Source: Utricularia gibba
Lineage: Eukaryota; Streptophyta; Magnoliopsida; Lamiales; Lentibulariaceae
NCBI GenBank assembly: GCA_002189035.1
Contig: NEEC01000362.1
Span: forward strand, 1 to 33,700
Reading direction: 5' to 3'
Length of the DNA: 33,700 nucleotides
Below the pieces are notes generated by a model, which saw only the letters and a list, made by a program, of their open reading frames with translations, was not told the origin of the DNA and ran no database searches. The stretch's first letter is position 1. Each line of letters opens with the position of its first letter. The translations under genes and the position numbers were made by a program. This document shows positions 1-33,700 of the stretch, in pieces.

Positions 1-868
1 GCGAGACTGGCCGCCACAAAACGAGAAGCGGTTCCTTGAAAAACCATGTAGGCAGCCCGAAAACCGAACGATAATAAATACATCACTTTATTTGCCGGAC
101 TACAACTAACTCTCGGTGCAAGCCAAACATTACCTTTGTCCGTTCCAGGTGCACCCAAAGACCGCCTGTCAAGTATAAAGTAAGTTGTTGAAAAAAATCA
201 TGTGGGGTGCACGTGACATCATAATTTAAACAAATGCATCATTTTTTTTAATCGATTTGCATCCAGTTGACCTCATGAGCCATACAGAATCGGGGTCAAG
301 GACCAAGTTCCCAGCGAGACTGGCCGCCACAAAACGAGAAGCGTTCCTTGAAAAACCATGTAGGCAGCCCCCGAAAACGAACGATAATAAATACATCACT
401 TTATTTGCCGGACTACAACTAACTCTCGGTGCAAGCCAACCTTACCTTTGTCCCGTTCCAGGTGCACCCAAAGACCGCCTGCTCAAGTATAAAGTAAGTT
501 GTTGAAAAAAATCATGTGGGGTGCACGTGACATCATAATTTAAACAAATGCATCATTTTTTTTAATCGATTTGCATCCAGTTGACCTCATGAGCCATACA
601 GAATCGGGGTCAAGGACCAAGTTCCCAGCGAGACTGGCCGCCACAAACGAGAAGCGGTTCCTTGAAAAACCATGTAGGCAGCCCCCGAAAACCGAACGAT
701 AATAAATACATCACTTTATTTGCCGGACTACAACTAACTCTCGGTGCAAGCCAACCTTACCTTTGTCCGTTCCAGTGCACCCAAACCGCCTGCTCAAGTA
801 TAAAGTAAGTTGTTGAAAAAATCATGTGGGGTGCACGTGACATCGTAATTTAAACAAATGCATCATTT
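1..868. repeat. Class A monomers (one partial, two complete)
   Basis: Bases 1-253 are the 3' four-fifths of an A unit cut by the window edge, starting inside GCGAGACTGGCCGCC. Complete A units begin at 254 and 568. The unit at 568 leads into a B unit. It carries the pre-B features CCAGTGCACCCAAACC (a shortened A motif) and GACATCGTAA instead of GACATCATAA. No coding region. Confidence 0.95.
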
Positions 869-1168
869 GATTTGTATCCTTTTGTCCTCATGAGCCATAA
901 AGAATCGACCAAGTTCCTAGCGAGACTGGCCGCACAAAACGAGAAGCTTTCCTTGAAAAACCATGTAGGCAACACCGAAAACCGAACGTTAATAAATACA
1001 TCACTTTCTTTGCCGGGCTACAACTACTTTGGGCAAGGCCAAGCTGATCTTTTTCCGGTTCCAAGTGCCCCCAAAACCGCCTCCTCATGTATAAAGTATG
1101 TTGTTAAAAAAATCATGTGGGGTGCACTTGACATCGTAATTTAAACAAATGCATCATTTTTTTTATTC
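869..1168. repeat. Class B monomer (B1)
   Basis: This 300-bp unit carries the B marks: CCTTTTGTCC after the phase mark (itself changed to GATTTGTATCC), CATAAAGAATCG, TTCCTAGCG, GGCAACACCG, AACGTTAATAAA, TTTCTTTGCCGGGC, GGTTCCAAGTGCCCCC, CCTCATGTATAAAGTATG and TTGTTAAAAAAA. The T tract before it is collapsed to CATCATTTGATTT. The following A unit opens with ATTCGATTT, the same junction seen after B units at 19897, 27927, 29162, 30724 and 32269. Confidence 0.95.
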
Positions 1169-1482
1169 GATTTGCATCCAGTTGACCTCATGAGCCAGAC
1201 AGAAATGGGGTCAAGGACCAAGTTCCCAGCGAGACTGGCCGCCCAAAAAACGAGAAGCGGTTCCTTGAAAAACCATGTAGGCAGCCCCCGAAAACGAACG
1301 ATAATAAATACATCACTTTATTTGCCGGACTACAACTAACTCTCGGTGCAAGCCAAACATTACTTTGTCCCGTTCCAGGTGCACCCAAAGACCGCCTGCT
1401 CAAGTATAAAGTAAGTTGTTGAAAAAATCATGTGGGGTGCACGTGACATCATAATTTAAACAAATGCATCATTTTTTTAATC

Positions 1483-1770
1483 GATTTGCATCCAGTTGAC
1501 CTCATGAGCCATACAGAATCGGGTCAAGGACCAAGTTCCCAGCGAGACTGGCCGCCACAAAACGAGAAGCGGTTCCTTGAAAAACCATGTAGGCAGCCCC
1601 CGAAAACCGAACGATAATAAATACATCACTTTATTTGCCGGACTACAACTAACTCTCGGTGCAAGCCAACTTACAAAGACCGCCTGCTCAAGTATAAAGT
1701 AAGTTGTTAAAAAATCATGTGGGGTGCACGTGACATCATAATTTAAACAAATGCATCATTTTTTTTAATC
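1483..1770. repeat. Short blended monomer
   Basis: A 288-bp A unit in which about 24 bp between GCAAGCCAACTTAC and AAAGACCGCC is missing. It ends with TTGTTAAAAAA, which is B-like, rather than TTGTTGAAAAAA. The loss lies in the segment where A and B are most different. The next unit has the CAGAATGGGG mark found after several B units. It is either a real deletion derivative or a collapsed consensus of A and B copies. Confidence 0.8.
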
Positions 1771-3435: not shown

Positions 3436-3455
3436 AATAAATACATCACTTTATT
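3436..3455. promoter_or_regulatory. Bidirectional AATAAA signals (one example)
   Basis: AATAAA occurs on the + strand at 3436-3441, and its complement TTTATT at 3450-3455 gives AATAAA on the - strand. The + copy is kept in A and B. The - copy is lost in typical B units because TTTATTTG becomes TTTCTTTG. These could act as poly(A) signals for satellite transcripts, but the motif is common in AT-rich DNA. Confidence 0.25.
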
Positions 3456-5151: not shown

Positions 5152-7008
5152 GATTTGCATCCAGTTGACCTCATGAGCCATACAGAATCGGGGTCAAGGA
5201 CCAAGTTCCCAGCGAGACTGGCCGCCAAAACGAGAAGCGGTTCCTTGAAAAACCATGTAGGCAGCCCCCGAAAACCGAACGATAATAAATACATCACTTT
5301 ATTTGCCGGACTACAACTAACTCTCGGTGCAAGCCAACTTACTTTGTCCCGTTCCAGGTGCACCCAAAGACCGCCTGCTCAAGTATAAAGTAAGTTGTTG
5401 AAAAAATCATGTGGGGTGCACGTGACATCATAATTTAAACAAATGCATCATTTTTTTTAATCGATTTGCATCCAGTTGACCTCATGAGCCATACAGAATC
5501 GGGGTCAAGGACCAAGTTCCCAGCGAGACTGGCCGCCACAAAGAGAAGCGGTTCCTTGAAAAACCATGTAGGCAGCCCCGAAAACGAACGATAATAAATA
5601 CATCACTTTATTTGCCGGACTACAACTAACTCTCGTGCAAGCCAACCTTACCTTTGTCCCGTTCCAGGTGCACCCAAAGACCGCCTGCTCAAGTATAAAG
5701 TAAGTTGTTGAAAAAATCATGTGGGGTGCACGTGACATCATAATTTAAACAAATGCATCATTTTTTTTAATCGATTTGCATCCAGTTGACCTCATGAGCC
5801 ATACAGAATCGGGTCAAGGACCAAGTTCCAGCGAGACTGGCCGCCACAAAACGAGAAGCGGTTCCTTGAAAACCATGTAGGCAGCCCCGAAAACGAACGA
5901 TAATAAATACATCACTTTATTTGCCGGACTACAACTAACTCTCGGTGCAAGCCAAACTTACCTTTGTCCCGTTCCAGGTGCACCCAAAGACCGCCTGCTC
6001 AAGTATAAAGTAAGTTGTTGAAAAAATCATGTGGGGTGCACGTGACATCATAATTTAAACAAATGCATCATTTTTTTTAATCGATTTGCATCCAGTTGAC
6101 CTCATGAGCCATACAGAATCGGGGTCAAGGACCAAGTTCCCAGCGAGACTGGCCCAAAACGAGAAGCGGTTCCTTGAAAAACCATGTAGGCAGCCCCCGA
6201 AAACCGAACGATAATAAATACATCACTTTATTTGCCGGACTACAACTAACTCTCGGCAAGCCAAACATTACCTTTTCCGTTCCAGGTGCACCCAAAGACC
6301 GCCTGCTCAAGTATAAAGTAAGTTGTTGAAAAAAATCATGTGGGGTGCACGTGACATCATAATTTAAACAAATGCATCATTTTTTTTAATCGATTTGCAT
6401 CCAGTTGACCTCATGAGCCATACAGAATCGGGGTCAAGGACCAAGTTCCCAGCGAGACTGGCCGCCACAAAACGAGAAGCGGTTCCTTGAAAAACCATGT
6501 AGGCAGCCCCCGAAAACGAACGATAATAAATACATCACTTTATTTGCCGGACTACAACTAACTCTCGGTGCAAGCCAAACCTTACCTTTGTCCCGTTCCA
6601 GGTGCACCCAAAGACCGCCTGCTCAAGTATAAAGTAAGTTGTTGAAAAAATCATGTGGGGTGCACGTGACATCATAATTTAAACAAATGCATCATTTTTT
6701 TTAATCGATTTGCATCCAGTTGACCTCATGAGCCATACAGAATCGGGGTCAAGGACCAAGTTCCCAGCGAGACTGGCCGCCACAAAACGAGAAGCGGTTC
6801 CTTGAAAAACCATGTAGGCAGCCCCCGAAAACCGAACGATAATAAATACATCACTTTATTTGCCGGACTACAACTAACTCTCGGTGCAAGCCAACCTTAC
6901 CTTTGTCCCGTTCCAGTGCACCCAAACGCCTGCTCAAGTATAAAGTAAGTTGTTGAAAAAATCATGTGGGGTGCACGTGACATCGTAATTTAAACAAATG
7001 CATCATTG

Positions 7009-7275
7009 GATTTGCATCCCCTCATGAGCCATAAGAATACCAAGTTCCCAGCGAGACTGGCCGCCAAAAACGAGAAGCGTTCCTTGAAAAACCATGTAGG
7101 CAACCCCGAAAGAACGTTAATAAATACATCACTTTCTTTGCCGGGCTACAACTAAAGCCAAACACCCGTTCCAGTGCCCCCAAACCGCCTCCTCAAGTAT
7201 AAAGTAAGTTGTTAAAAAATCATGTGGGGTGCACGTGACATCATAATTTAAACAAATGCATCATTTTTTTTAATC
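7009..7275. repeat. Blended, deletion-rich B monomer (B2)
   Basis: At 267 bp this is the shortest unit in the window. B marks: GTTAATAAA, CTTTCTTTGCCGGGC, AGTGCCCCCAAACC, CCGCCTCCTC and TTGTTAAAAAA. A marks: TTCCCAGCG and TATAAAGTAAG. Bases are missing at A/B-divergent places: after GCATCC, CATAAGAATACC for CATA(C/A)AGAATCGG, and ACTAAAGCCAAACACCCG for the GCAAGCC region. That pattern looks like a consensus of A and B copies with conflicting columns dropped, rather than a natural unit. Confidence 0.8.
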
Positions 7276-7590
7276 GATTTGCATCCAGTTGACCTCATGA
7301 GCCATACAGAATCGGGGTCAAGGACCAAGTTCCCAGCGAGACTGGCCGCCACAAAACGAGAAGCGGTTCCTTGAAAAACCATGTAGGCAGCCCCCGAAAA
7401 CCGAACGATAATAAATACATCACTTTATTTGCCGGACTACAACTAACTCTCGGTGCAAGCCAAACATTACCTTTGTCCGTTCCAGGTGCACCCAAAGACC
7501 GCCTGCTCAAGTATAAAGTAAGTTGTTGAAAAAATCATGTGGGGTGCACGTGACATCATAATTTAAACAAATGCATCATTTTTTTTAATC

Positions 7591-7891
7591 GATTTGCATC
7601 CAACCTCATGAGCCATACAGAATCGGGTCAAGGACCAAGTTCCCAGCGAGACTGGCCGCCACAAAACGAGAAGCGGTTCCTTGAAAAACCATGTAGGCAG
7701 CCCCCGAAAACCGAACGATAATAAATACATCACTTTATTTGCCGGACTACAACTAACTCTCGGTGCAAGCCAAACCTTTGTCCGGTTCCCCCCCCAAAGA
7801 CCGCCTGCTCAAGTATAAAGTAAGTTGTTAAAAAATCATGTGGGGTGCACGTGACATCATAATTTAAACAAATGCATCATTTTTTTTAATC
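7591..7891. repeat. A/B blended monomer
   Basis: A 301-bp unit. The first two-thirds are class A, apart from CCAACCTC for CCAGTTGACCTC. The last third has GTCCGGTTCCCCCCCCAAAG and TTGTTAAAAAA, which are B-like. It lies two monomers after the B unit at 7009, the same offset as between the B unit at 869 and the short unit at 1483. Confidence 0.8.
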
Positions 7892-12515: not shown

Positions 12516-14059
12516 GATTTGCATCCAGTTGACCTCATGAGCCATACAGAATCGGGTCAAGGACCAAGTTCCCAGCGAGACTGGCCGCCACAAAACGAGA
12601 AGCGGTTCCTTGAAAAACCATGTAGGCAGCCCCCGAAAACGAACGATAATAAATACATCACTTTATTTGCCGGACTACAACTAACTCTCGGTGCAAGCCA
12701 AACATTACCTTTGTCCGTTCCAGGTGCACCCAAAGACCGCCTGCTCAAGTATAAAGTAAGTTGTTGAAAAAATCATGTGGGGTGCACGTGACATCATAAT
12801 TTAAACAAATGCATCATTTTTTTTATCGATTTGCATCCAGTTGACCTCATGAGCCATACAGAATCGGGTCAAGGAAAGTTCCCAGCGAGACTGGCCGCCA
12901 CAAAACGAGAAGCGTTCCTTGAAAAAATGTAGGCAGCCCCCGAAAACCGAACGATAATAAATACATCACTTATTTGCCGGACTAGGTGCAAGCCAAACAT
13001 TACCTTTGTCCCGTTCCAGGTGCACCCAAAGACCGCCTGCTCAAGTATAAAGTAAGTTGTTGAAAAAATCATGTGGGGTGCACGTGACATCATAATTTAA
13101 ACAAATGCATCATTTTTTTTAATCGATTTGCATCCAGTTGACCTCATGAGCCATACAGAATCGGGGTCAAGGACCAAGTTCCCAGCGAGACTGGCCGCCA
13201 CAAAACGAGAAGCGGTTCCTTGAAAAACCATGTAGGCAGCCCCCGAAAACCGAACGATAATAAATACATCACTTTATTTGCCGGACTACAACTAACTCTC
13301 GGTGCAAGCCAAACTTACCTTTGTCCCGTTCCAGGTGCACCCAAAGACCGCCTGCTCAAGTAAAGTAAGTTGTTGAAAAAATCATGTGGGGTGCACGTGA
13401 CATCATAATTTAAACAAATGCATCATTTTTTTAATCGATTTGCATCCAGTTGACCTCATGAGCCATACAGAATCGGGGTCAAGGACCAAGTTCCCAGCGA
13501 GACTGGCCGCCACAAAACGAGAAGCGGTTCCTTGAAAACCATGTAGGCAGCCCCGAAAACGAACGATAATAAATACATCACTTTATTTGCCGGACTACAA
13601 CTAACTCTCGGTGCAAGCCAAACACCTTTGTCCGTTCCAGGTGCACCCAAAGACCGCCTGCTCAAGTATAAAGTAAGTTGTTGAAAAAATCATGTGGGGT
13701 GCACGTGACATCATAATTTAAACAAATGCATCATTTTTTTAATCGATTTGCATCCAGTTGACCTCATGAGCCATACAGAATCGGGGTCAAGGACCAAGTT
13801 CCCAGCGAGACTGGCCGCCACAAAACGAGAAGCGGTTCCTTGAAAAACCATGTAGGCAGCCCCCGAAAACCGAACGATAATAAATACATCACTTTATTTG
13901 CCGGACTACAACTAACTCTCGGTGCAAGCCAAACCTTACCTTTGTCCCGTTCCAGTGCACCCAAAGACCGCCTGCTCAAGTATAAAGTAAGTTGTTGAAA
14001 AAATCATGTGGGGTGCACGTGACATCATAATTTAAACAAATGCATCATTTTTTTTAATC

Positions 14060-14339
14060 GATTTGCATCCTTGACCTCATGAGCCATACAGAATCACCAA
14101 GTTCCCAGCGACTGGCCGCCACAAAACGAGAAGCGTTCCTTGAAAAACCATGTAGGCAGCCCGAAAACGAACGATAATAAATACATCACTTTTTGCCGGC
14201 TACAACTGGGCAAGCCAAGACTTTTTCCGGTTCCAGTGCCCCCAAGACCGCCTCCTCAAGTATAAAGTAAGTTGTTAAAAAAATCATGTGGGGTGCACGT
14301 GACATCATAATTTAAACAAATGCATCATTTTTTTTAATC
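14060..14339. repeat. Blended, deletion-rich B monomer (B3)
   Basis: A 280-bp unit mixing A and B marks. B side: CTTTTTCCGGTTCCAGTGCC, CCGCCTCCTC and TTGTTAAAAAAA. A side: CATACAGAATC, TTCCCAGCG, AACGATAATAAA and GTAAGTTG. Bases are missing at diverged positions: GCATCCTTGACC, GAATCACCAAG, GGCAGCCCGAAAACG, GCCGGCTACAAC and ACTGGGCAAGCC. It may be a true chimera or a merged consensus. Confidence 0.8.
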
Positions 14340-15566
14340 GATTTGCATCCAGTTGACCTCATGAGCCATACAGAATCGGGTCAAGGACCAAGTTCCCAGC
14401 GAGACTGGCCGCCACAAACGAGAAGCGGTTCCTTGAAAAACCATGTAGGCAGCCCCCGAAAACGAACGATAATAAATACATCACTTTATTTGCCGGACTA
14501 CAACTAACTCTCGGTGCAAGCCAAACATTACCTTTGTCCCGTTCCAGGTGCACCCAAAGACCGCCTGCTCAAGTATAAAGTAAGTTGTTGAAAAAATCAT
14601 GTGGGGTGCACGTGACATCATAATTTAAACAAATGCATCATTTTTTTTAATCGATTTGCATCCAGTTGACCTCATGAGCCATACAGAATCGGGTCAAGGA
14701 CCAAGTTCCCAGCGAGACTGGCCGCCACAAAACGAGAAGCGGTTCCTTGAAAAACCATGTAGGCAGCCCCCGAAAACCGAACGATAATAAATACATCACT
14801 TTATTTGCCGACTACAACTAACTTCGGTGCAAGCCAAACTTACTTTGTCCGTTCCAGGTGCACCCAAAGACCGCTGCCAAGTATAAAGTAAGTTGTTGAA
14901 AAAATCATGTGGGGTGCACGTGACATCATAATTTAAACAAATGCATCATTTTTTTAATCGATTTGCATCCAGTTGACCTCATGAGCCATACAGAATCGGG
15001 GTCAAGGACCAAGTTCCCAGCGAGACTGGCCGCCAAAAAACGAGAAGCGGTTCCTTGAAAAACCATGTAGGCAGCCCCGAAAACGAACGATAATAAATAC
15101 ATCACTTTATTTGCCGGACTACAACTAACTCTCGTGCAAGCCAACTTACCTTTGTCCCGTTCCAGGTGCACCCAAGACCGCCTGCTCAAGTAAAAGTAAG
15201 TTGTTGAAAAAATCATGTGGGGTGCACGTGACATCATAATTTAAACAAATGCATCATTTTTTTTAATCGATTTGCATCCAGTTGACCTCATGAGCCATAC
15301 AGAATCGGGTCAAGGACGTTCCCAGCGAGACTGGCCGCCACAAAACGAGAAGCGGTTCCTTGAAAACCATGTAGGCAGCCCCCGAAAACCGAACGATAAT
15401 AAATACATCACTTTATTTGCCGGACTACAACTAACTCTCGTGCAAGCCAAACTTACCTTTGTCCCGTTCCAGTGCACCCAAAGACCGCCTGCTCAAGTAT
15501 AAAGTAAGTTGTTGAAAAATCATGTGGGGTGCACGTGAATCGTAATTTAAACAAATGCATCATTGT
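14340..15566. repeat. Four class A monomers
   Basis: Monomers begin at 14340, 14653, 14960 and 15269. The last leads into a B unit. It ends with GCACGTGAATCGTAA, in which GACATC or GATATC has become GAATC. It also has GGACGTTCCC for GGACCAAGTTCCC. Satellite only. Confidence 0.95.
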
Positions 15567-15864
15567 GATTTGCATCCTTTGTCCTCATGAGCCATAAAGA
15601 ATCGGGGCCCGGACCAAGTTCCTAGCCTGGCCGCCACAAAACGAGAAGCTGTTCCTTGAAAAACCATGTAGGCAACCCGAAAACCGAACGTTAATAAATA
15701 CATCACTTTCTTTGCCGGGCTACAACTTACTTTGGCAAGCCTAAGCTGACTTTTCCCGTTCCAAGTGCCCCCAAGACCGCCTCTCAGTATAAAGTAAGTT
15801 GTTAAAAAAACATGTGGGGTGCACGTGACATCATAATTTAAACAAATGCATCATTTTTTTTATC
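15567..15864. repeat. Class B monomer (B4)
   Basis: A 298-bp B unit with CCTTTGTCC, CATAAAGAATCGGGGCCCGG, TTCCTAGC, GAAGCTGTTCC, AACGTTAATAAA, CTTTCTTTGCCGGGC, CTAAGCTGAC, CCAAGTGCCCCC and TTGTTAAAAAAA. It is entered through CATTGTGATTT, without a T tract. GAGA is missing from TTCCTAGCGAGACTGG. It lies five monomers after the B unit at 14060. Confidence 0.93.
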
Positions 15865-17725: not shown

Positions 17726-18969
17726 GATTTGCATCCAGTTGACCTCATGAGCCATACAGAATGGGGTCAAGGACCAAGTTCCCAGCGAGACTGGCCGCCA
17801 CAAAACGAGAAGCGGTTCCTTGAAAAACCATGTAGGCAGCCCCCGAAAACGAACGATAATAAATACATCACTTTATTTGCCGGACTACAACTAACTCTCG
17901 GTGCAAGCCAAACATTACCTTTGTCCCGTTCCAGGTGCACCCAAGACCGCCTGCTCAAGTATAAAGTAAGTTGTTGAAAAAATCATGTGGGTGCACGTGA
18001 CATCATAATTTAAACAAATGCATCATTTTTTTTAATCGATTTGCATCCAGTTGACCTCATGAGCCATACAGAATCGGGTCAAGGACCAAGTTCCCAGCGA
18101 GACTGGCCCCAAAAACGAGAAGCGGTTCCTTGAAAACCATGTAGGCAGCCCCGAAAAACCGAACGATAATAAATACATCACTTTATTTGCCGGACTACAA
18201 CTAACTCTCGGTGCAAGCCAAACATTACCTTTGTCCCGTTCCAGGTGCACCCAAAGACCGCCTGCTCAAGTATAAAGTAAGTTGTTGAAAAAATCATGTG
18301 GGGTGCACGTGACATCATAATTTAAACAAATGCATCATTTTTTTTAATCGATTGCATCCAGTTGACCTCATGAGCCATACAGAATCGGGGTCAAGGACCA
18401 AGTTCCCAGCGAGACTGGCCGCCACAAAACGAGAAGCGGTTCCTTGAAAAACCATGTAGGCAGCCCCCGAAAACCGAACGATAATAAATACATCACTTTA
18501 TTTGCCGGACTACAACTAACTCTCGGTGCAAGCCAAACCTTACCTTTGTCCCGTTCCAGGCACCCAAAGACCGCCTGCTCAAGTATAAAGTAAGTTGTTG
18601 AAAAAATCATGTGGGGTGCACGTGACATCATAATTTAAACAAATGCATCATTTTTTTTAATCGATTTGCATCCAGTTGACCTCATGAGCCATACAGAATC
18701 GGGGTCAAGGACCAAGTTCCAGCGAGACTGGCCGCCACAAAACGAGAAGCGGTTCCTTGAAAAACCATGTAGGCAGCCCCCGAAAACCGAACGTAATAAA
18801 TCACTTTTTATTTGCCGGACTACAACTAACTCTCGGTGCAAGCCAACCTTACCTTTGTCCCGTTCCAGTGCACCCAAAACCGCCTGCTCAAGTATAAAGT
18901 AAGTTGTTGAAAAAATCATGTGGGGTGCACGTGACATCGTAATTTAAACAAATGCATCATTTTTTTATC
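17726..18969. repeat. Four class A monomers
   Basis: Monomers begin at 17726, 18038, 18350 and 18663. The one at 18350 has lost one T of the phase mark (CGATTGCATCC). The last, before a B unit, has AACGTAATAAATCACTTTTT, TTCCAGCG and CCAGTGCACCCAAAACC, all dropped-base or pre-B forms, and ends GACATCGTAA. Satellite only. Confidence 0.95.
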
Positions 18970-19271
18970 GATTTGCATCCTTTTGACCTCATGAGCCATA
19001 AAGAATCGGGGCCGGACCAAGTTCCAGCGAGACTGGCCGCCACAAAACGAGAAGCGTTCCTTGAAAAACCATGTAGGCAGCCCGAAAACCGAACGATAAT
19101 AAATACATCACTTTCTTTGCCGGACAACTAACTTTGGGCCAAGGCCTAAGCTGACTTTTTTCCGGTTCCAAGTGCCCCAAAGACCTCCTCATGTATAAAG
19201 TATGTTGTTAAAAAATCATGTGGGGTGCACGTGACATCGTAATTTAAACAAATGCATCATTTTTTTTAATC
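18970..19271. repeat. Class B monomer with A-like patches (B6)
   Basis: A 302-bp unit. B marks: CCTTTTGACC, CATAAAGAATCGGGGCCGG, CTTTCTTTGCCGG, AAGGCCTAAGCTGAC, CCAAGTGCC, CTCATGTATAAAGTATG and TTGTTAAAAAA. A marks: AACGATAATAAA and GGCAGCCCG. Dropped-base forms TTCCAGCGAG and GAAGCGTTCC appear where A and B differ by one base. It is five monomers after the unit at 17419. Confidence 0.9.
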
Positions 19272-19896
19272 GATTTGCATCCAGTTGACCTCATGAGCCA
19301 TACAGAATCGGGGTCAAGGACCAAGTTCCCAGCGAGACTGGCCGCCACAAAACGAGAAGCGGTTCCTTGAAAAAACCATGTAGGCAGCCCCGAAAACCGA
19401 ACGATAATAAATACATCACTTTATTTGCCGGACTACAACTAACTCTCGGTGCAAGCAAACTTACCTTTGTCCGTTCCAGGTGCACCCAAAGACCCCTGCT
19501 CAAGTATAAAAGTAAGTTGTTGAAAAAATCATGTGGGGTGCACGTGACATCATAATTTAAACAAATGCATCATTTTTTTTAATCGATTTGCATCCAGTTG
19601 ACCTCATGAGCCATACAGAATCGGGGTCAAGGACCAAGTTCCCAGCGAGACTGGCCGCCACAAAACGAGAAGCGGTTCCTTGAAAAACCATGTAGGCAGC
19701 CCCGAAAACCGAACGATAATAAATACATCACTTTATTTTGCCGGACTACAACTAACTCTCGGTGCAAGCCAAACCTTACCTTTGTCCGTTCCAGGTGCAC
19801 CCAAGACCGCCTGCTCAAGTATAAAGTAAGTTGTTGAAAAAATCATGTGGGGTGCACGTGAATCGTAATTTAAACAAATGCATCATTGTATTCATC
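19272..19896. repeat. Two class A monomers
   Basis: Monomers begin at 19272 and 19585. The second ends GCACGTGAATCGTAA and then CATTGTATTCATC, the B entry sequence that replaces the T tract. Confidence 0.95.
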
Positions 19897-20201
19897 GATT
19901 TGCATCCTTTTGTCCTCATGAGCCATAAAGAATCGGGGGGGACCAAGTTCCTAGCGAGACTGGCCGCCACAAACGAGAAGCTGTTCCTTGAAAAACCATG
20001 TAGGCAACCCGAAAACCGAACGTTAATAAACATCACTTTCTTTGCCGGGCTACAACTTACTTTGGGCAAGGCCTAAGCTGATCTTTTTCCGGTTCCAAGT
20101 GCCCCCAAGACCGCCTCCTCATGTATAAAGTATGTTGTTAAAAAATCATGTGGGGTGCACGTGACATCATAATTTAAACAAATGCATCATTTTTTTTATT
20201 C
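19897..20201. repeat. Class B monomer (B7)
   Basis: A 305-bp B unit with CCTTTTGTCC, CATAAAGAATCGGGGGGG, TTCCTAGCG, GAAGCTGTTCC, GGCAACCCG, AACGTTAATAAA, TTTCTTTGCCGGGC, TTGGGCAAGGCCTAAGCTG, CTCATGTATAAAGTATG and TTGTTAAAAAA. The next unit opens with ATTCGATTT. Confidence 0.95.
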
Positions 20202-20823
20202 GATTTGCATCCAGTTGACCTCATGAGCCATACAGAATCGGGGTCAAGGACCAAGTTCCCAGCGAGACTGGCCGCCACAAAACGAGAAGCGGTTCCTTGA
20301 AAACCATGTAGGCAGCCCCCGAAAACGAACGATAATAAATACATCACTTTTTTGCCGGACTACAACTAACTCTCGTGCAAGCCAAACTTACCTTTGTCCC
20401 GTTCCAGGTGCACCAAAGACCGCCTGCTCAAGTATAAAGTAAGTTGTTGAAAAAATCATGTGGGGTGCACGTGACATCATAATTTAAACAAATGCATCAT
20501 TTTTTTTTAATCGATTTGCATCCAGTTGACCTCATGAGCCATACAGAATCGGGGTCAAGGACCAAGTTCCCAGCGAGACTGGCCGCCAAAACGAGAAGCG
20601 GTTCTTGAAAAACCATGTAGGCAGCCCCCGAAAACCGAACGATAATAAATACATCACTTTATTTGCCGGACTACAACTAACTCTCGTGCAAGCCAAACCT
20701 TACCTTTGTCCCGTTCCAGGTGCACCCAAAGACCGCCTGCTCAAGTATAAAGTAAGTTGTTGAAAAAATCATGTGGGGTGCACGTGACATCATAATTTAA
20801 ACAAATGCATCATTTTTTTAATC
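20202..20823. repeat. Two class A monomers
   Basis: Monomers begin at 20202 and 20513. The first has CATCACTTTTTTGCC, in which the A/C base that separates A (CTTTATTTG) from B (CTTTCTTTG) is absent, and CTCGTGCAAG, lacking the G/A base of CTCGGTGCAAG and CTCGATGCAAG. Confidence 0.95.
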
Positions 20824-21129
20824 GATTTGCATCCAGTTGACCTCATGAGCCATACAGAATCGGGGCAAGGACCAAGTTCCCAGCGAGACTGGCCGCCACA
20901 AACGAGAAGCGGTTCCTTGAAAAACCATGTAGGCAGCCCGAAAACCGAACGATAATAAATACATCACTTTATTTGCCGGGCTACAACTACTTTGGCCAAG
21001 CCTAAGCTGACTTTTTCCGTTCCAAGTGCCCCCAAGACCGCCTGCTCATGTATAAAGTAAGTTGTTAAAAAAATCATGTGGGGTGCACGTGACATCGTAA
21101 TTTAAACAAATGCATCATTTTTTTTAATC
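20824..21129. repeat. A-to-B chimeric monomer
   Basis: A 306-bp unit. It is class A from the start (CCAGTTGACC, CATACAGAATCGGGG, TTCCCAGCG, AACGATAATAAA) to about 20978. It is then B-like from TTGCCGGGCTACAACTAC, with CCTAAGCTGAC, CCAAGTGCCCCC, CTCATGTATAAAG and TTGTTAAAAAAA. One clean switch fits a crossover or gene-conversion joint, but consensus merging is also possible. It is three monomers after the B unit at 19897. Confidence 0.85.
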
Positions 21130-24100: not shown

Positions 24101-24218
24101 TTTGTCCGTTCCAGTGCACCCAAAGACCGCCTGCTCAAGTATAAAGTAAGTTGTTGAAAAAATCATGTGGGGTGCACGTGACATCATAATTTAAACAAAT
24201 GCATCATTTTTTTTAATC
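21130..24218. repeat. Ten class A monomers
   Basis: Monomers begin at 21130, 21442, 21755, 22068, 22384, 22682, 22994, 23292, 23598 and 23909. The unit at 22384 is short. The unit at 22994 lacks GGAC of TTGCCGGACTAC and part of AAAGACCGCC, and ends GTGAATCATAA. The unit at 23292 has CCGGCTACAAC and CTCGGCAAGCC. The rest are ordinary class A. No gene. Confidence 0.95.
22384..22681. repeat. Short A monomer
   Basis: A 298-bp unit with GCCAACTTTTTGTCCGTTCC joined to AAAGACCGCTG, losing the CAGGTGCACC segment. It is the same type of shortening as at 2690 and 8819, here isolated in the right half. Confidence 0.8.
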
Positions 24219-24522
24219 GATTTGCATCCAGTTGACCTCATGAGCCATACAGAATCGGGGTCAAGGACCAAGTTCCCAGCGAGACTGGCCGCCACAAAAC
24301 GAGAAGCGGTTCCTTGAAAAACCATGTAGGCAGCCCCGAAAACGAACGATAATAAATACATCACTTTATTTGCCGGACTACAACTAACTCTCGGCAAGCC
24401 TAAGCTGACTTTTGTCCGTTCCCCCCCAAGACCGCCTGCTCAAGTATAAAGTAAGTTGTTAAAAAATCATGTGGGGTGCACGTGACATCATAATTTAAAC
24501 AAATGCATCATTTTTTTTAATC
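24219..24522. repeat. A-to-B chimeric monomer
   Basis: A 304-bp unit. It is class A up to CTCGGCAAGCC at about 24400, then B-like (CCTAAGCTGACTTTTGTCCG, TTCCCCCCCAAGACC, TTGTTAAAAAA), with the A form CCTGCTCAAGTATAAAGTAAG between. The switch point is about 100 bp further along the monomer than in the chimera at 20824. Confidence 0.85.
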
Positions 24523-26388
24523 GATTTGCATCCAGTTGACCTCATGAGCCATACAGAATCGGGGTCAAGGACCAAGTTCCCAGCGAGACTGGCCGCACAA
24601 AACGAGAAGCGGTTCCTTGAAAAACCATGTAGGCAGCCCCGAAAACGAACGATAATAAATACATCACTTTATTTGCCGGACTACAACTAACTCTCGTGCA
24701 AGCCAACTTACCTTTGTCCGTTCCAGGTGCACCCAAAGACCGCCTGCTCAAGTATAAAGTAAGTTGTTGAAAAAATCATGTGGGGTGCACGTGACATCAT
24801 AATTTAAACAAATGCATCATTTTTTTTAATCGATTTGCATCCAGTTGACCTCATGAGCCATACAGAATCGGGGTCAAGGACCAAGTTCCCAGCGAGACTG
24901 GCCGCCACAAAACGAGAAGCGGTTCCTTGAAAAACCATGTAGGCAGCCCCCGAAAACCGAACGATAATAAATACATCACTTTATTTGCCGACTACAACTA
25001 ACTCTCGTGCAAGCCAAACATTACCTTTGTCCGTTCCAGGTGCACCCAAAGACCGCCTGCTCAAGTATAAAGTAAGTTGTTGAAAAATCATGTGGGGTGC
25101 ACGTGACATCATAATTTAAACAAATGCATCATTTTTTTTAATCGATTTGCATCCAGTTGACCTCATGAGCCATACAGAATCGGGGTCAAGGACCAAGTTC
25201 CCAGCGAGACTGGCCGCCACAAAACGAGAAGCGGTTCCTTGAAAAACCATGTAGGCAGCCCCCGAAAAGAACGATAATAAATACATCACTTTATTTGCCG
25301 GACTACAACTAACTCTCGGTGCAAGCCAACCTTACCTTTGTCCGTTCCAAGTGCACCCAAAGACCGCCTGCTCAAGTATAAAGTAAGTTGTTGAAAAAAT
25401 CATGTGGGGTGCACGTGACATCATAATTTAAACAAATGCATCATTTTTTTAATCGATTTGCATCCAGTTGACCTCATGAGCCATACAGAATCGGGGTCAA
25501 GGACCAAGTTCCCAGCGAGACTGGCCGCCACAAAACGAGAAGCGTTCCTTGAAAAACCATGTAGGCAGCCCCGAAAACCGAACGATAATAAATACATCAC
25601 TTTATTTGCCGGACTACAACTAACTCTCGGCAAGCCAAACCTTACCTTTGTCCGTTCCAGGTGCACCCAAGACCGCCTGCTCAAGTATAAAGTAAGTTGT
25701 TGAAAAAATCATGTGGGGTGCACGTGACATCGTAATTTAAACAAATGCATCATTTTTTTTAATCGATTTGCATCCAGTTGACCTCATGAGCCATACAGAA
25801 TCGGGGTCAAGGACCAAGTTCCCAGCGAGACTGGCCGCCACAAAACGAGAAGCGGTTCCTTGAAAAACCATGTAGGCAGCCCCGAAAACGAACGATAATA
25901 AATACATCACTTTATTTGCCGGACTACAACTAACTCTCGGTGCAAGCCAAACCTTACCTTTGTCCGTTCCAGGTGCACCCAAAGACCGCCTGCTCAAGTA
26001 TAAAGTAAGTTGTTGAAAAAAATCATGTGGGGTGCACGTGACATCATAATTTAAACAAATGCATCATTTTTTTTAATCGATTTGCATCCAGTTGACCTCA
26101 TGAGCCATACAGAATCGGGGTCAAGGACCAAGTTCCAGCGAGACTGGCCGCCACAAAACGAGAAGCGGTTCCTTGAAAAACCATGTAGGCAGCCCCGAAA
26201 ACCGAACGATAATAAATACATCACTTTATTTGCCGGACTACAACTAACTCTCGGTGCAAGCCAAACTTACCTTTGTCCGTTCCAGGTGCACCCAAAGACC
26301 GCCTGCTCAAGTATAAAGTAAGTTGTTGAAAAAATCATGTGGGGTGCACGTGACATCATAATTTAAACAAATGCATCATTTTTTTATC
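24523..26388. repeat. Six class A monomers
   Basis: Monomers begin at 24523, 24832, 25144, 25455, 25765 and 26079. The unit at 25455 has CTCGGCAAGCC, GAAGCGTTCC and a following GACATCGTAA, all marks that elsewhere accompany B units, so it may be a mostly-A blend. Satellite only. Confidence 0.95.
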
Positions 26389-26682
26389 GATTTGCATCAT
26401 GAGCCATACAGAATCGGGGCAAGGACCAAGTTCCAGCGAGACTGGCCGCCACAAAACGAGAAGCGGTTCCTTGAAAACCATGTAGGCAGCCCGAAAACCG
26501 AACGTTAATAAATACATCACTTTATTTGCCGGGCTACAACTTACTTTGGGCAAGCCTAAGCTGATCTTTTTCCGGTTCCAAGTGCCCCCAAGACCGCCTC
26601 CTCATGTATAAAGTAAGTTGTTAAAAAAATCATGTGGGTGCACGTGACATCATAATTTAACAAATGCATCATTTTTTTAATC
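26389..26682. repeat. A-to-B chimeric monomer (B9)
   Basis: A 294-bp unit. The phase mark is followed directly by CATGAGCC, so about 11 bp (CCAGTTGACCT or the B equivalent) is missing. Class A marks CATACAGAATCGGGG and GAAGCGGTTCC give way to B marks from AACGTTAATAAA onward: GCCGGGC, TTACTTTGGGCAAGCCTAAG, CCGGTTCCAAGTGCCCCC, CTCATGTATAAAG and TTGTTAAAAAAA. Confidence 0.87.
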
Positions 26683-27926
26683 GATTTGCATCCAGTTGAC
26701 CTCATGAGCCATACAGAATGGGGTCAAGGACCAAGTTCCCAGCGAGACTGGCCGCCACAAAACGAGAAGCGGTTCCTTGAAAAACCATGTAGGCAGCCCC
26801 CGAAAACGAACGATAATAAATACATCACTTTATTTGCCGGACTACAACTAACTCTCGGTGCAAGCCAAACATTTTTGTCCGTTCCAGGTGCACCCAAAGA
26901 CCGCCTGCTCAAGTATAAAGTAAGTTGTTGAAAAAATCATGTGGGGTGCACGTGACATCATAATTTAAACAAATGCATCATTTTTTTTAATCGATTTGCA
27001 TCCAGTTGACCTCATGAGCCATACAGAATCGGGTCAAGGACCAAGTTCCCAGCGAGACTGGCCGCCACAAAACGAGAAGCGGTTCCTTGAAAAACCATGT
27101 AGGCAGCCCCCGAAAACCGAACGATAATAAATACATCACTTTATTTGCCGGACTACAACTAACTCTCGGTGCAAGCCAAACTTACTTTGTCCGTTCCAGG
27201 TGCACCCAAAGACCGCCTGCTCAAGTATAAAGTAAGTTGTTGAAAAAATCATGTGGGGTGCACGTGACATCATAATTTAAACAAATGCATCATTTTTTTT
27301 TTAATCGATTTGCATCCAGTTGACCTCATGAGCCATACAGAATCGGGGTCAAGGACCAAGTTCCCAGCGAGACTGGCCGCCACAAAACGAGAAGCGGTTC
27401 CTTGAAAAACCATGTAGGCAGCCCCCGAAAACGAACGATAATAAATACATCACTTTATTTGCCGGACTACAACTAACTCTCGGTGCAAGCCAACCTTACC
27501 TTTGTCCCGTTCCAGGTGCACCCAAAGACCGCCTGCTCAAGTATAAAGTAAGTTGTTGAAAAAATCATGTGGGGTGCACGTGACATCATAATTTAAACAA
27601 ATGCATCATTTTTTTTAATCGATTTGCATCCAGTTGACCTCATGAGCCATACAGAATCGGGGTCAAGGACCAAGTTCCCAGCGAGACTGGCCGCCACAAA
27701 ACGAGAAGCGTTCCTTGAAAAACCATGTAGGCAGCCCCCGAAAACCGAACGATAATAAATACATCACTTTTATTTGCCGGACTACAACTAACTCTCGTGC
27801 AAGCCACCTTACTTTGTCCGTTCCAGTGCACCCAAAACCGCTGCTCAAGTATAAAGTAAGTTGTTGAAAAAATCATGTGGGGTGCACGTGATATCGTAAT
27901 TTAAACAAATGCATCATTTATTTATC
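26683..27926. repeat. Four class A monomers
   Basis: Monomers begin at 26683, 26993, 27307 and 27621. The first has the post-B mark CAGAATGGGG. The junction before 27307 has the longest T tract seen (T10). The last precedes a B unit, with CCAGTGCACCCAAAACC and GTGATATCGTAA. Satellite only. Confidence 0.95.
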
Positions 27927-28234
27927 GATTTGCATCCTTTGACCTCATGAGCCATAAAGAATCGGGGCAAGGACCAAGTTCCTAGCGAGACTGGCCGCCA
28001 CAAAACGAGAAGCTGTTCCTTGAAAAACCATGTAGGCAACACCGAAAACCGAACGTTAATAAATACATCACTTTCTTTGCCGGGCTACAACTTACTTTGG
28101 GCAAGGCCTAAGCTGATCTTTTTCCGGTTCCAAGTGCCCCAAACCGCCTCTCATGTATAAAGTATGTTGTTAAAAAAATCATGTGGGGTGCACGTGACAT
28201 CGTAATTTAAACAAATGCATCATTTTTTTTATTC
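27927..28234. repeat. Class B monomer (B10)
   Basis: A 308-bp B unit: CCTTTGACC, CATAAAGAATCGGGGCAAGG, TTCCTAGCG, GAAGCTGTTCC, GGCAACACCG, AACGTTAATAAA, TTTCTTTGCCGGGC, TTGGGCAAGGCCTAAGCTG, CCAAGTGCC, CTCATGTATAAAGTATG and TTGTTAAAAAAA. The entry TTTATTTATCG replaces the T tract. The next unit opens with ATTCGATTT and has CAGAATGGGG, as after the B unit at 869. Confidence 0.95.
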
Positions 28235-28546
28235 GATTTGCATCCAGTTGACCTCATGAGCCATACAGAATGGGGTCAAGGACCAAGTTCCCAGCGAGAC
28301 TGGCCGCCAAAAAACGAGAAGCGGTTCCTTGAAAAACCATGTAGGCAGCCCGAAAACGAACGATAATAAATACATCACTTTATTTGCCGGACTACAACTA
28401 ACTCTCGGTGCAAGCCAAACATTACCTTTGTCCCGTTCCAGGTGCACCCAAAGACCGCCTGCTCAAGTATAAAGTAAGTTGTTGAAAAAATCATGTGGGG
28501 TGCACGTGACATCATAATTTAAACAAATGCATCATTTTTTTTAATC
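28235..28546. repeat. Class A monomer after B
   Basis: A single A unit with the post-B opening ATTCGATTT and CAGAATGGGG, GCCCGAAAACG, and an otherwise ordinary A body. Confidence 0.95.
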
Positions 28547-28853
28547 GATTTGCATCCAGTTGACCTCATGAGCCATACAGAATCGGGTCAAGGACCAAGT
28601 TCCAGCGAGACTGGCCGCCACAAAACGAGAAGCGGTTCCTTGAAAAACATGTAGGCAGCCCCCGAAAACCGAACGATAATAAATACATCACTTTATTTGC
28701 CGGACTACAACTAACTCTCGGTGCAAGCCAAACTGATTTTTGTCCGGTTCCAGTCCCCCAAAGACCGCCTGCTCAAGTATAAAGTAAGTTGTTAAAAAAA
28801 CATGTGGGGTGCACGTGACATCATAATTTAAAAATGCATCATTTTTTTTAATC
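28547..28853. repeat. A-to-B chimeric monomer
   Basis: A 307-bp unit. It is class A to CTCGGTGCAAGCCAAACTG, then B-like TTTTTGTCCGGTTCC, AGTCCCCC and TTGTTAAAAAAA, with the A form CCTGCTCAAGTATAAAGTAAG in between. It ends ATTTAAAAATGCATC, lacking AC. It lies two monomers after B10 and two before B11. Confidence 0.85.
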
Positions 28854-29161
28854 GATTTGCATCCAGTTGACCTCATGAGCCATACAGAATCGGGGTCAAG
28901 GACCAAGTTCCCAGCGAGACTGGCCGCCACAAAACGAGAAGCGTTCCTTGAAAAACCATGTAGGCAGCCCCGAAAACGAACGATAATAAATACATCACTT
29001 TATTTGCCGGACTACAACTAACTCTCGATGCAAGCCAACCTTACCTTTGTCCGTTCCAAGTGCACCCAAACCGCCTGCTCAAGTATAAAGTAAGTTGTTG
29101 AAAAAATCATGTGGGGTGCACGTGATATCGTAATTTAAACAAATGCATCATTGTATTCATT
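28854..29161. repeat. Pre-B class A monomer (HOR position 5)
   Basis: An A unit with CTCGATGCAAGCC, CCAAGTGCACCCAAACC and exit GTGATATCGTAA CATTGTATTCATT. These marks recur in the pre-B units at 30410 and 31957. CTCGATGCAAG also occurs at 33206 and 33517. It defines the last position of the five-monomer higher-order unit. Confidence 0.9.
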
Positions 29162-29473
29162 GATTTGCATCCTTTTGTCCTCATGAGCCATAAAGAATCG
29201 CGGGCCCGGACCAAGTTCCTAGCGAGACTGGCCGCCAAAAACGAGAAGCTGTTCCTTGAAAAACCATGTAGGCAACACGAAAACCGAACGTTAATAAATA
29301 CATCACTTTCTTTGCCGGGCTACAACTTACTTTGGGCAAGGCCTAAGCTGATCTTTTTCCGGTTCCAAGTGCCCCCAAAACCGCCTCCTCATGTATAAAG
29401 TATGTTGTTAAAAAAAATCATGTGGGGTGCACGTGACATCGTAATTTAAACAAATGCATCATTTTTTTTATTC
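29162..29473. repeat. Class B monomer (B11), HOR position 1
   Basis: A 312-bp unit close to the full B type: CCTTTTGTCC, CATAAAGAATCGCGGGCCCG, TTCCTAGCG, GAAGCTGTTCC, GGCAACACG, AACGTTAATAAA, TTTCTTTGCCGGGC, TTGGGCAAGGCCTAAGCTG, CCGGTTCCAAGTGCCCCC, CTCATGTATAAAGTATG and TTGTTAAAAAAAA. Confidence 0.96.
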
Positions 29474-30723
29474 GATTTGCATCCAGTTGACCTCATGAGC
29501 CATACAGAATCGGGGTCAAGGACCAAGTTCCCAGCGAGACTGGCCGCCACAAAACGAGAAGCGGTTCCTTGAAAAACCATGTAGGCAGCCCGAAAACCGA
29601 ACGATAATAAATACATCTTTATTTGCCGGACTACAACTAACTCTCGGTGCAAGCCAAACTTACCTTTGTCCCGTTCCAGGTGCACCCAAAGACCGCCTGC
29701 TCAAGTATAAAGTAAGTTGTTGAAAAAATCATGTGGGGTGCACGTGACATCATAATTTAAACAAATGCATCATTTTTTTTAATCGATTTGCATCCAGTTG
29801 ACCTCATGAGCCATACAGAATCGGGTCAAGGACCAAGTTCCGCGAGACTGGCCGCCACAAAACGAGAAGCGGTTCCTTGAAAAACCATGTAGGCAGCCCC
29901 CGAAACCGAACGATAATAAATACATCACTTTATTTGCCGGCTACAACTAACTCTCGGTGCAAGCCAAACATTACTTTGTCCGTTCCAGGTGCACCCAAAG
30001 ACCGCCTGCTCAAGTATAAAGTAAGTTGTTGAAAAAATCATGTGGGGTGCACGTGACATCATAATTTAAACAAATGCATCATTTTTTTTAATCGATTTGC
30101 ATCCAGTTGACCTCATGAGCCATACAGAATCGGGGTCAAGGACCAAGTTCCCAGCGAGACTGGCCGCCACAAAACGAGAAGCGGTTCCTTGAAAAACCAT
30201 GTAGGCAGCCCCCGAAAACCGAACGATAATAAATACATCACTTTATTTGCCGGACTACAACTAACTCTCGGTGCAAGCCAAACTTTACCTTTGTCCCGTT
30301 CCAGGTGCACCCAAAGACCGCCTGCTCAAGTATAAAGTAAGTTGTTGAAAAAATCATGTGGGGTGCACGTGACATCATAATTTAAACAAATGCATCATTT
30401 TTTTTAATCGATTTGCATCCAGTTGACCTCATGAGCCATACAGAATCGGGGTCAAGGACCAAGTTCCCAGCGAGACTGGCCGCCACAAAACGAGAAGCGG
30501 TTCCTTGAAAAACCATGTAGGCAGCCCCCGAAAACCGAACGATAATAAATACATCTTTTTATTTGCCGGACTACAACTAACTCTCGATGCAAGCCAAACC
30601 TTACCTTTGTCCGTTCCAAGTGCACCCAAAAACCGCCTGCTCAAGTATAAAGTAAGTTGTTGAAAAAATCATGTGGGGTGCACGTGATATCGTAATTTAA
30701 ACAAATGCATCATTGTATTCATT
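29474..30723. repeat. Four class A monomers, HOR positions 2-5
   Basis: Monomers begin at 29474, 29785, 30094 and 30410. The first has the post-B ATTCGATTT opening and CATCTTTATTTG. The second has CCGCGAGACTGG and CCGGCTACAAC. The last has the pre-B marks CATCTTTTTATTTG, CTCGATGCAAG and CCAAGTGCACCCAAAAACC. Confidence 0.95.
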
Positions 30724-31033
30724 GATTTGCATCCTTTTGTCCTCATGAGCCATAAAGAATCGCGGGCCCGGACCAAGTTCCTAGCGAGACTGGCCGCCAC
30801 AAAACGAGAAGCTGTTCCTTGAAAAACCATGTAGGCAACACCGAAAACCGAACGTTAATAAATACATCACTTTCTTTGCCGGGCTACAACTACTTTGGGC
30901 CAAGCCTAAGCTGATCTTTTCCGGTTCCAAGTGCCCCAAAACCGCCTCCTCATGTATAAAGTATGTTGTTAAAAAAATCATGTGGGGTGCACGTGACATC
31001 GTAATTTAAACAAATGCATCATTTTTTTTATTC
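30724..31033. repeat. Class B monomer (B12), HOR position 1
   Basis: A 310-bp B unit, nearly the same as the one at 29162, including the entry CATTGTATTCATTGATTT and CGCGGGCCCGG. Differences are small (TTGGGCCAAGCC, CTGATCTTTTCCGG). Confidence 0.96.
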
Positions 31034-32268
31034 GATTTGCATCCAGTTGACCTCATGAGCCATACAGAATCGGGGTCAAGGACCAAGTTCCCAGAGACTG
31101 GCCGCCACAAAACGAGAAGCGGTTCCTTGAAAAACCATGTAGGCAGCCCCGAAAACCGAACGATAATAAATACATCACTTATTTGCCGGACTACAACTAA
31201 CTCTCGGTGCAAGCCAAATTACCTTTGTCCTTCCAGGTGCACCCAAAGACCTGCTCAAGTATAAAGTAAGTTGTTGAAAAAATCATGTGGGGTGCACGTG
31301 ACATCATAATTTAAACAAATGCATCATTTTTTTTAATCGATTTGCATCCAGTTGACCTCATGAGCCATACAGAATCGGGGTCAAGGACCAAGTTCCAGCG
31401 AGACTGGCCGCCACAAAACGAGAAGCGTTCCTTGAAAAACCATGTAGGCAGCCCCGAAAACCGAACGATAATAAATACATCACTTTATTTGCCGGACTAC
31501 AACTAACTCTCGGTGCAAGCCAAACTTACCTTTGTCCGTTCCAGGTGCACCCAAAGACCGCCTGCTCAAGTATAAAGTAAGTTGTTGAAAAAATCATGTG
31601 GGGTGCACGTGACATCATAATTTAAACAAATGCATCATTTTTTTTAATCGATTTGCATCCAGTTGACCTCATGAGCCATACAGAATCGGGGTCAAGGACC
31701 AAGTTCCCAGCGAGACTGGCCGCCACAAAACGAGAAGCGGTTCCTTGAAAAACATGTAGGCAGCCCCGAAAACCGAACGATAATAAATACATCACTTTAT
31801 TTGCCGGACTACAACTAACTCTCGTGCAAGCCTACCTTACTTTGTCCGTTCCTGCACCCAAAGACCGCCTGCTCAAGTATAAAGTAAGTTGTTGAAAAAA
31901 TCATGTGGGGTGCACGTGACATCATAATTTAAACAAATGCATCATTTTTTTTAATCGATTTGCATCCAGTTGACCTCATGAGCCATACAGAATCGGGGTC
32001 AAGGACCAAGTTCCAGCGAGACTGGCCGCCACAAAACGAGAAGCGGTTCCTTGAAAAACCATGTAGGCAGCCCCGAAAACCGAACGATAATAAATACATC
32101 TTTTATTTGCCGGACTACAACTAACTCTCGATGCAAGCCAAACCTTACCTTTGTCCCGTTCCAAGTGCACCCAAAAACCGCCTGCTCAAGTATAAAGTAA
32201 GTTGTTGAAAAAATCATGTGGGGTGCACGTGATATCGTAATTTAAACAAATGCATCATTGTATTCATC
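31034..32268. repeat. Four class A monomers, HOR positions 2-5
   Basis: Monomers begin at 31034, 31339, 31650 and 31957. The first has ATTCGATTT and CCCAGAGACTGG. The third has CAAGCCTACCTTAC. The fourth is the pre-B unit with CATCTTTTATTTG, CTCGATGCAAG and GTGATATCGTAA. Confidence 0.95.
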
Positions 32269-32579
32269 GATTTGCATCCTTTTTGTCCTCATGAGCCATA
32301 AAGAATCGCGGGCCCGGACCAAGTTCCTAGCGAGACTGGCCGCCACAAACGAGAAGCTGTTCCTTGAAAAACCATGTAGGCAACACCGAAAACCGAACGT
32401 TAATAAATACATCACTTTCTTTGCCGGGCTACAACTTACTTTGGCCAAGGCCTAAGCTGATCTTTTTCCGGTTCCAGTGCCCCAAACCGCCTCCTCATGT
32501 ATAAAGTATGTTGTTAAAAAAAATCATGTGGGGTGCACGTGACATCGTAATTTAAACAAATGCATCATTTTTTTTATTC
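32269..32579. repeat. Class B monomer (B13), HOR position 1
   Basis: A 311-bp B unit entered through CATTGTATTCATCG, with CCTTTTTGTCC, CGCGGGCCCGG, TTCCTAGCG, GAAGCTGTTCC, GGCAACACCG, AACGTTAATAAA and TTGTTAAAAAAAA. The next unit opens ATTCGATTT. Confidence 0.96.
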
Positions 32580-33700
32580 GATTTGCATCCAGTTGACCTC
32601 ATGAGCCATACAGAAATCGGGGTCAAGGACCAAGTTCCCAGCGAGACTGGCCGCCACAAAACGAGAAGCGGTTCCTTGAAAAACCATGTAGGCAGCCCCG
32701 AAAACGAACGATAATAAATACATCACTTTATTTGCCGGACTACAACTAACTCTCGGTGCAAGCCAAACTTACCTTTGTCCCGTTCCAGGTGCACCCAAAG
32801 ACCGCCTGCTCAAGTATAAAGTAAGTTGTTGAAAAAATCATGTGGGGTGCACGTGACATCATAATTTAAACAAATGCATCATTTTTTTTAATCGATTTGC
32901 ATCCAGTTGACCTCATGAGCCATACAGAATCGGGGTCAAGGACCAAGTTCCCAGCGAGACTGGCCGCCACAAAACGAGAAGCGGTTCCTTGAAAAACCAT
33001 GTAGGCAGCCCCGAAAACCGAACGATAATAAATACATCACTTTATTTGCCGGACTACAACTAACTCTCGGTGCAAGCCAAACTTACCTTTTGTCCCGTTC
33101 CGGTGCACCCAAAGACCGCCTGCTCAAGTATAAAGTAAGTTGTTGAAAAAATCATGTGGGGTGCACGTGACATCATAATTTAACAAATGCATCATTTTTT
33201 TAATCGATTTGCATCCAGTTGACCTATGAGCCATACAGAATCGGGGTCAAGGACCAAGTTCCCAGCGAGACTGGCCGCCATAAAACGAGAAGCGGTTCCT
33301 TGAAAAACCATGTAGGCAGCCCCGAAAACGAACGATAATAAATACATCACTTTATTTGCCGGACTACAACTAACTCTCGATGCAAGCCATACCTTACCTT
33401 TGTCCGTTCCAGGTGCACCCAAGACCGCCTGCTCAAGTATAAAGTAAGTTGTTGAAAAAATCATGTGGGGTGCACGTGACATCATAATTTAAACAAATGC
33501 ATCATTTTTTTTAATCGATTTGCATCCAGTTGACCTCATGAGCCATACAGAATCGGGGTCAAGGACCAAGTTCCCAGCGAGACTGGCCGCCACAAAACGA
33601 GAAGCGGTTCCTTGAAAAACCATGTAGGCAGCCCCGAAAACCGAACGATAATAAATACATCTTTTATTTGCCGGACTACAACTAACTCTCGATGCAAGCC
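32580..33700. repeat. Four class A monomers, last one cut by window end
   Basis: Monomers begin at 32580, 32894, 33206 and 33517. The first has the post-B ATTCGATTT. The third has CTCGATGCAAGCCATACC. The fourth has the pre-B marks CATCTTTTATTTG and CTCGATGCAAG and stops at GCAAGCC. Confidence 0.95.

Follow-up and report, generated by a model that had tools for sequence, protein, structure and literature searches.

Are the one-base gaps that pepper the satellite units of contig NEEC01000362.1, from the Utricularia gibba assembly GCA_002189035.1, a property of the plant's DNA or of the way in which the contig was assembled? The window considered here is this complete contig (‘C85’), 33,700 bases long, in a genome assembly of 100,091,633 bases and 516 contigs. 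According to the TRF rows and the unit table, it is a single tandem array (positions 1-33700, plus strand) in which a 316-base satellite unit is repeated about 110 times. The units belong to two classes: class A, the majority, and class B, whose members are scattered among the A units and differ from them at approximately 22 clean columns and by a few indels. Scored at 21 diagnostic columns, the 108 full units of the window comprise 92 A units, 6 B units and 10 that are mixed. The first-pass annotation held that the gaps fall where the classes differ, and that a consensus step had omitted the bases on which the copies disagreed. Judging from the contig sequences, we strongly favour, as an unproven conclusion to which we give a probability of roughly 0.88, an assembly product with two components, homopolymer run shortening and a consensus taken over mixed copies. 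Most probably, the plant's DNA does not itself contain these gaps.

Units were delimited with a cyclic aligner; an earlier anchor scan had given 78 units only, because the anchor went unmatched in many of them. The unit-class, linkage, neighbour, simulation-scoring and A/B-switch analyses left out those units that exceeded 80 gap columns or 60 inserted bases; the 12 contigs for which these were counted had between 0 and 7 of them each. C85, C46 and C170 were covered whole, C10 from position 10,001 to its end, and the other contigs over about 10 kb each; for event rates per kb, the run-shortening survey and the cross-contig enrichment test, C46, C170 and C10 too are represented by about 10 kb.

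Across 110 units, the window alignment contains 449 one-base deletions as against 32 insertion events, and the deletions are concentrated at polymorphic columns. These columns were defined from 11 other contigs only, about 10 kb of each, and so the window does not define its own test. Among the 148 single-letter columns, 26 are polymorphic and carry 89 of the 130 one-base gaps; the other 122 carry 41. In a permutation stratified by run length (runs of 1 to 3), polymorphic runs held 276 gaps where 80.8 were expected, and none of 20,000 shuffles reached as many. The excess is limited to the exact column: there are 3.42 gaps per column at the polymorphic positions, and 0.29 one base away. Uniform random deletions, passed through the same aligner as a control, gave an enrichment ratio of 1.14 as against the 8.8 observed (polymorphic meaning, for this ratio, at least 12 other bases in 20 contigs), and exact-string counts, which need no aligner, point the same way. 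The enrichment test that had been proposed for the window thus comes out in favour of the proposal: one-base gaps prefer class-diagnostic columns, above all in A/B-mixed units.

Not all of the gaps are of this kind. Homopolymer runs are shortened throughout the satellite, and GGGG (unit column 295), CCCCC (column 56) and a T run (column 245) are shortened in all 12 contigs surveyed, including C84, which shows only 0.1 mismatches per kb. The near-uniform contigs C84, C54, C90 and C135 (130 units) have 1.89 one-base gaps per unit, a baseline that predicts 208 of the 449 gaps in the window. This figure is if anything high, because column 131, at which three of these four contigs show other bases, contributes some gaps to the baseline (16.9 expected). 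Could the sequencing chemistry then account for everything, the mixing of copies being irrelevant? The satellite contigs examined do resemble other single-molecule assemblies in the shortening of their G, C and T runs; unlike in a plain case of that kind, though, it explains less than half of the one-base gaps in the window. Of the 241 gaps in excess of the baseline, 198 lie on polymorphic runs, and single-letter columns that are not polymorphic are almost gap-free. As a sole cause, shortening is refuted by comparing the same positions across contigs, as follows, and we regard it as very improbable.

Matched position by position over 73 runs, gaps are more frequent in contigs where the run is polymorphic than in those where it is not (Mantel-Haenszel odds ratio 3.07, z 12.7). 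At column 171 (GACCGCCT_CTCA), the base is lost in 39 of 384 cases in four contigs with both alleles, and never in 233 cases from eight others; at column 151 (TTCCA_GTGCA) the corresponding losses are 40/304 and 3/234, and at column 220 they are 7/433 and 0/247, the eight comparison contigs including C38, which has a few B or mixed units. At these three columns, then, gaps are absent or rare where there is no second allele. At columns 30 and 315, gaps are not rarer with a single allele, and these belong mostly to the homopolymer baseline. Two of the strings singled out by the first-pass annotation, TTCC(C)AGCG and GC(G)GTTCC, do contain gaps, but these are mostly ordinary homopolymer shortening, found also in contigs with little or no second allele: the first loses its base in 25/240 cases in eight such contigs versus 50/433 in the four with both alleles, and the second in 22/231 versus 39/430. 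Losses are somewhat higher in mixed units (31/147 and 24/145, respectively) than in seven contigs without B units (24/190 and 18/188).

The dependence on two alleles being present together is seen also within contigs. In the ten mixed units of the window, one-base gaps occupy 27 of 210 diagnostic cells versus 38 of 2,950 other cells; at the diagnostic columns of the 92 A units there are 31 in 1,932, and at those of the six B units 10 in 126. At non-diagnostic columns the rate is 0.009 to 0.015 across unit classes, and for non-diagnostic runs of one or two letters it is 0.0070 in A units and higher, at 0.0126, in mixed ones, which is still a tenth of the diagnostic rate. Elsewhere, gaps at diagnostic columns number 31/252 in mixed and 27/1,554 in A units of C46, 112/1,260 and 17/819 in C170, and 76/1,533 and 21/1,596 in C10.

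Not every column on which the classes differ behaves alike. We sorted the diagnostic columns into seventeen at which either allele equals an adjacent base (‘neighbour-matching’) and five at which neither does (‘isolated’). In the mixed units of the first four contigs, gaps occur in 302 of 2,425 cells at neighbour-matching columns versus 16 of 709 at isolated ones, and in nine contigs fetched later the proportions are 139/1,361 versus 2/398. The base, in other words, tends to be lost where one allele equals its neighbour, and is seldom lost at isolated diagnostic columns. At column 224, where A and B differ cleanly, there is not one loss among 572 exact strings of the first 12 contigs, and there are 2 in 81 in the mixed units of the nine later ones. 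The neighbour rule bears also on the idea that ambiguity letters stood in the source record and were afterwards stripped by a text-handling step. Such stripping would put gaps on two-allele columns, as found, but it should affect isolated two-allele columns equally, and those are spared; nor does the window, or any of the 14 loci counted, contain a single ambiguity letter. We consider it scarcely credible. Split alleles that are aligned as a separate insertion and deletion, and both voted out, fit the data better.

The mixed-copy component could arise in the following way. Copies of A and B, and of subtypes of A, would each supply noisy long reads that are piled onto the same contig positions. 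Homopolymer runs, for their part, are shortened throughout the satellite whether the copies differ or not. Where an allele equals the neighbouring base, the aligner may write the difference not as a mismatch but as two events, one base inserted and one deleted, on either side of a shared base; CAGGT against CAAGT, for example, can be written with an A added and a G missing, the shared base lying in between. Each optional base would then be judged separately, and when the split is nearly even neither would gain enough support, so that both would be dropped.

A toy graph consensus was built on this scheme, from 24 noisy reads of an A and B mixture, with mismatches split into gap pairs; the assumed settings were 7% insertion, 4% deletion and 1.5% substitution at a depth of 24 reads. 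Path scoring and gap shifting followed those of pbdagcon. A graph consensus of this kind is used in Canu, according to the Canu paper. The toy consensus reproduces, in kind, the enrichment, the dependence on two alleles, the dependence on neighbours and the bias toward deletion. Its gap rate reaches 0.20 at neighbour-matching columns, 0.06 of which comes from a constant alignment difference at column 116, and 0 to 0.03 at isolated columns, and gaps are most frequent near even mixtures; when the gap-shifting step is removed, the effect is mostly gone. The per-column rank correlations of the plus-strand simulation with held-out plus- and minus-strand contigs are 0.74 and 0.70, and those of the minus-strand simulation are 0.51 and 0.59. 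Column 116 was excluded from these correlations, for first and held-out contigs alike, and column 156 was excluded from the first-contig set only.

Might the gaps instead be genuine losses of single bases, which occurred within the array and were spread by unequal exchange and conversion? Some gap forms are indeed common (CCAAACTTACC accounts for 106 of 568 strings and outnumbers every other form in C170), and of 83 gap strings at column 66, 77 come from C85, C46 and C10. Deletion events, however, number 16.3 per kb, and insertion events 0.93 per kb. B alleles are linked along units (mean r 0.67) and have spatial structure as well, tending to return every fifth unit (lag-5 autocorrelation 0.26), whereas one-base gaps at 16 frequent runs have neither, being unlinked (mean r -0.002) with an autocorrelation near zero. 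The gaps, moreover, are placed exactly on polymorphic columns, and not one of the 12 contigs is fixed for any of the tabulated gap forms. Real, spreading deletions are therefore quite unlikely to explain the pattern. A related possibility is that A and B copies pair during conversion, forming one-base loops at mismatches, and that deletion-biased repair of the loops produces real deletions. This would also place gaps at the columns where copies differ, and would favour neighbour-matching contexts. It needs a repair process that almost never leaves the double-base product, given 32 insertions to 449 deletions, and multi-switch mosaics among the mixed units are unlike simple conversion tracts: three or more A/B switches occur in 7 of 10 mixed units of C85, and in 11/13, 41/56 and 64/70 in the other main contigs. 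This too we judge very unlikely.

Several results weigh against an assembly origin, or against parts of it. In the nine later contigs, the gap rate at neighbour-matching columns is 0.102 in mixed units, 0.060 in A units and 0.065 in B units, a smaller contrast than in the first contigs, and 42 of their 82 mixed units switch between A and B once or not at all, as expected of real recombinants. Association between gaps somewhat exceeds that in shuffles (mean r2 0.027 versus 0.009). Of 109 window units, 38 have gaps at columns 66-67 and 46 at columns 142-144, and column 144 is gapped also in A-type units (76/277 in four contigs). Although C10 shows a second allele at column 66 (11 strings), a real length variant may be among the many gaps at columns 66 and 142-144 of C85. 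C170 has the gap form more often than any other at column 131, with 23 strings to 18 and 1 of the others. The simulation, when scored with the aligner used for the data, gives a mean of 0.07 at neighbour-matching columns, which is too low against the 0.125 observed. A simple column-majority vote, tried as a simulation and rejected, yields deletions at even mixtures but ranks the columns wrongly (rho -0.10). Finally, a prediction that the gap pattern follows contig orientation was recorded before nine further contigs were fetched. The orientation difference had correlated with the simulated one in the first contigs (Spearman 0.57 to 0.58, striking in four), but the dependence was not replicated in the nine new contigs (0.06 and 0.01), and exact label tests over 792 labelings of 12 contigs gave p values of 0.17 (largest column), 0.38 (columns taken together) and 0.16 (fit to the simulation). 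For columns 110 and 187 the sign agreed between the two sets (p 0.02 and 0.05, uncorrected for 22 columns); the orientation dependence is not used as evidence.

With these points in the balance, we still prefer run shortening combined with mixed-copy consensus. Mixed read pile-ups would be the cause in this contig, and the responsible pipeline would be of the HGAP, graph-consensus and Quiver type. U. gibba was assembled with HGAP, ending in Quiver polishing, with a contig N50 of 3.4 Mb, as stated in a review (PMC5793159). The authors of HiCanu caution that polishing may map reads to the wrong repeat copies and so add errors, and that collapsed heterozygosity yields a mosaic consensus (PMC7545148); the mosaic is described there for haplotypes, and for repeats the warning concerns polishing. 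Such mosaics in noisy long-read assemblies are a near parallel: reads of different copies are averaged, the resulting sequence matches no real copy, and small frame-changing errors appear (PMC7545148). Unlike the known mosaic consensus from collapsed or mis-mapped repeat copies, the gaps here prefer columns at which an allele equals its neighbour; this rule is not stated in the titles and abstract openings of the literature found, to which coverage was confined, full texts not being included.

The interpretation first given to the window is accordingly supported in part. The contig does have the look of a mixed-copy consensus, but the dropping of split votes fails as a general account of the small indels, because nearly half of the one-base gaps match the baseline and because isolated split columns mostly keep their base; it was incomplete, then, on the homopolymer background and on which split columns drop. 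Its practical conclusion, that small indels here should not be read as biology without the reads, is upheld. Satellite contigs such as C85 serve for the inference of higher-order repeats, conversion tracts and indel evolution, and the small indels of C85, together with much of its A/B mosaic, bear the mark of consensus averaging. In having two diverged unit classes, with B tending to every fifth position, the array resembles other plant satellites with higher-order structure; unlike theirs, its fine structure in C85 is untrustworthy. A literature search found no paper title on a U. gibba satellite. The signature itself (gaps at copy-differing columns where an allele equals its neighbour, deletions far outnumbering insertions, and no linkage) can be looked for in any repeat assembly, even when no reads are at hand.

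The mixed and B units themselves, all on the plus strand, have the following compositions over the 21 diagnostic columns. Two of the mixed units are mosaics of A, B and gap, at 6976-7233 (7 A, 6 B, 8 gaps) and 14018-14297 (8 A, 5 B, 8 gaps). Three are mostly A: 7549-7849 (14 A, 2 B, 5 gaps), 24177-24480 (16 A, 2 B, 3 gaps) and 28505-28813 (17 A, 2 B, 2 gaps). One, at 836-1126, is mostly B (17 B, 2 A, 2 gaps). The remaining four lie at 15534-15823 (3 A, 13 B, 5 gaps), 18930-19229 (5 A, 12 B, 4 gaps), 20783-21087 (12 A, 6 B, 3 gaps) and 26349-26642 (7 A, 11 B, 3 gaps). Among the B units, the one at 29121-29431 is complete, with B at 21 of 21 columns, and those at 17379-17683 (19 B, 2 A, no diagnostic gaps) and 27887-28192 (18 B, 1 A, 2 gaps) are nearly so; the others are at 19857-20159 and 30683-30991 (each 18 B, no A, 3 gaps) and 32228-32537 (19 B, no A, 2 gaps). 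Complete or near-complete B units stand close together at the right contig end (29121-29431, 30683-30991 and 32228-32537), and the mosaics lie to the left of this cluster, alongside the few good B units that begin at 17379, 19857 and 27887. Six A-like units, starting at 1542, 2750, 3677, 8878, 10107 and 22444, are 17 to 29 bases short, with their gaps in the most A/B-diverged part of the unit, approximately columns 131 to 163. These may be the scars of B units that were voted away.

The individual strings quoted by the first-pass annotation are present in the window, at the positions given or within five bases of them. TTCCAGCG occurs 12 times (at 1824, 4596 and elsewhere), GCGTTCC 11 times, CGTAATAAA twice (17238 and 18792), CCGGCTAC three times, CTTTTTTG once, CTCGTGCAAG 20 times, CCAGTGC 16 times and TGAATC three times. 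CATAGAATC occurs once, at 8227, and had been offered as a one-base gap at 8226; it lacks two bases, not one. Further gap-form k-mers, each with allele-form counterparts, are GACCGCCTCTCA, TTCCAGTGCA and CGTGAATC.

A few observations concern other contigs of the assembly. C10 has a subtype of its own, marked by CCAAACCTGACC, which occurs 36 times there and not at all in the other 11 contigs compared. C314 shows irregular distances between exact anchors (e.g. 181, 245, 256 and 271 bases) and many larger indels, unlike most other satellite contigs examined. TTTAGGG telomere repeats are found, among the matches listed, at the starts of C1 to C3; the exact repeats at C2:1-1013 and C3:1-398, again among the matches listed, are broken every tens to roughly a hundred bases, and these interruptions are perhaps consensus errors of the same kind. 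A mitochondrial-type cox1 lies in C515, split by about 965 bases, and short cox1-like fragments with stop codons, covering approximately model positions 136 to 220, occur in C213, C409, C505, C244 and C1; these are possibly nuclear copies of mitochondrial DNA.

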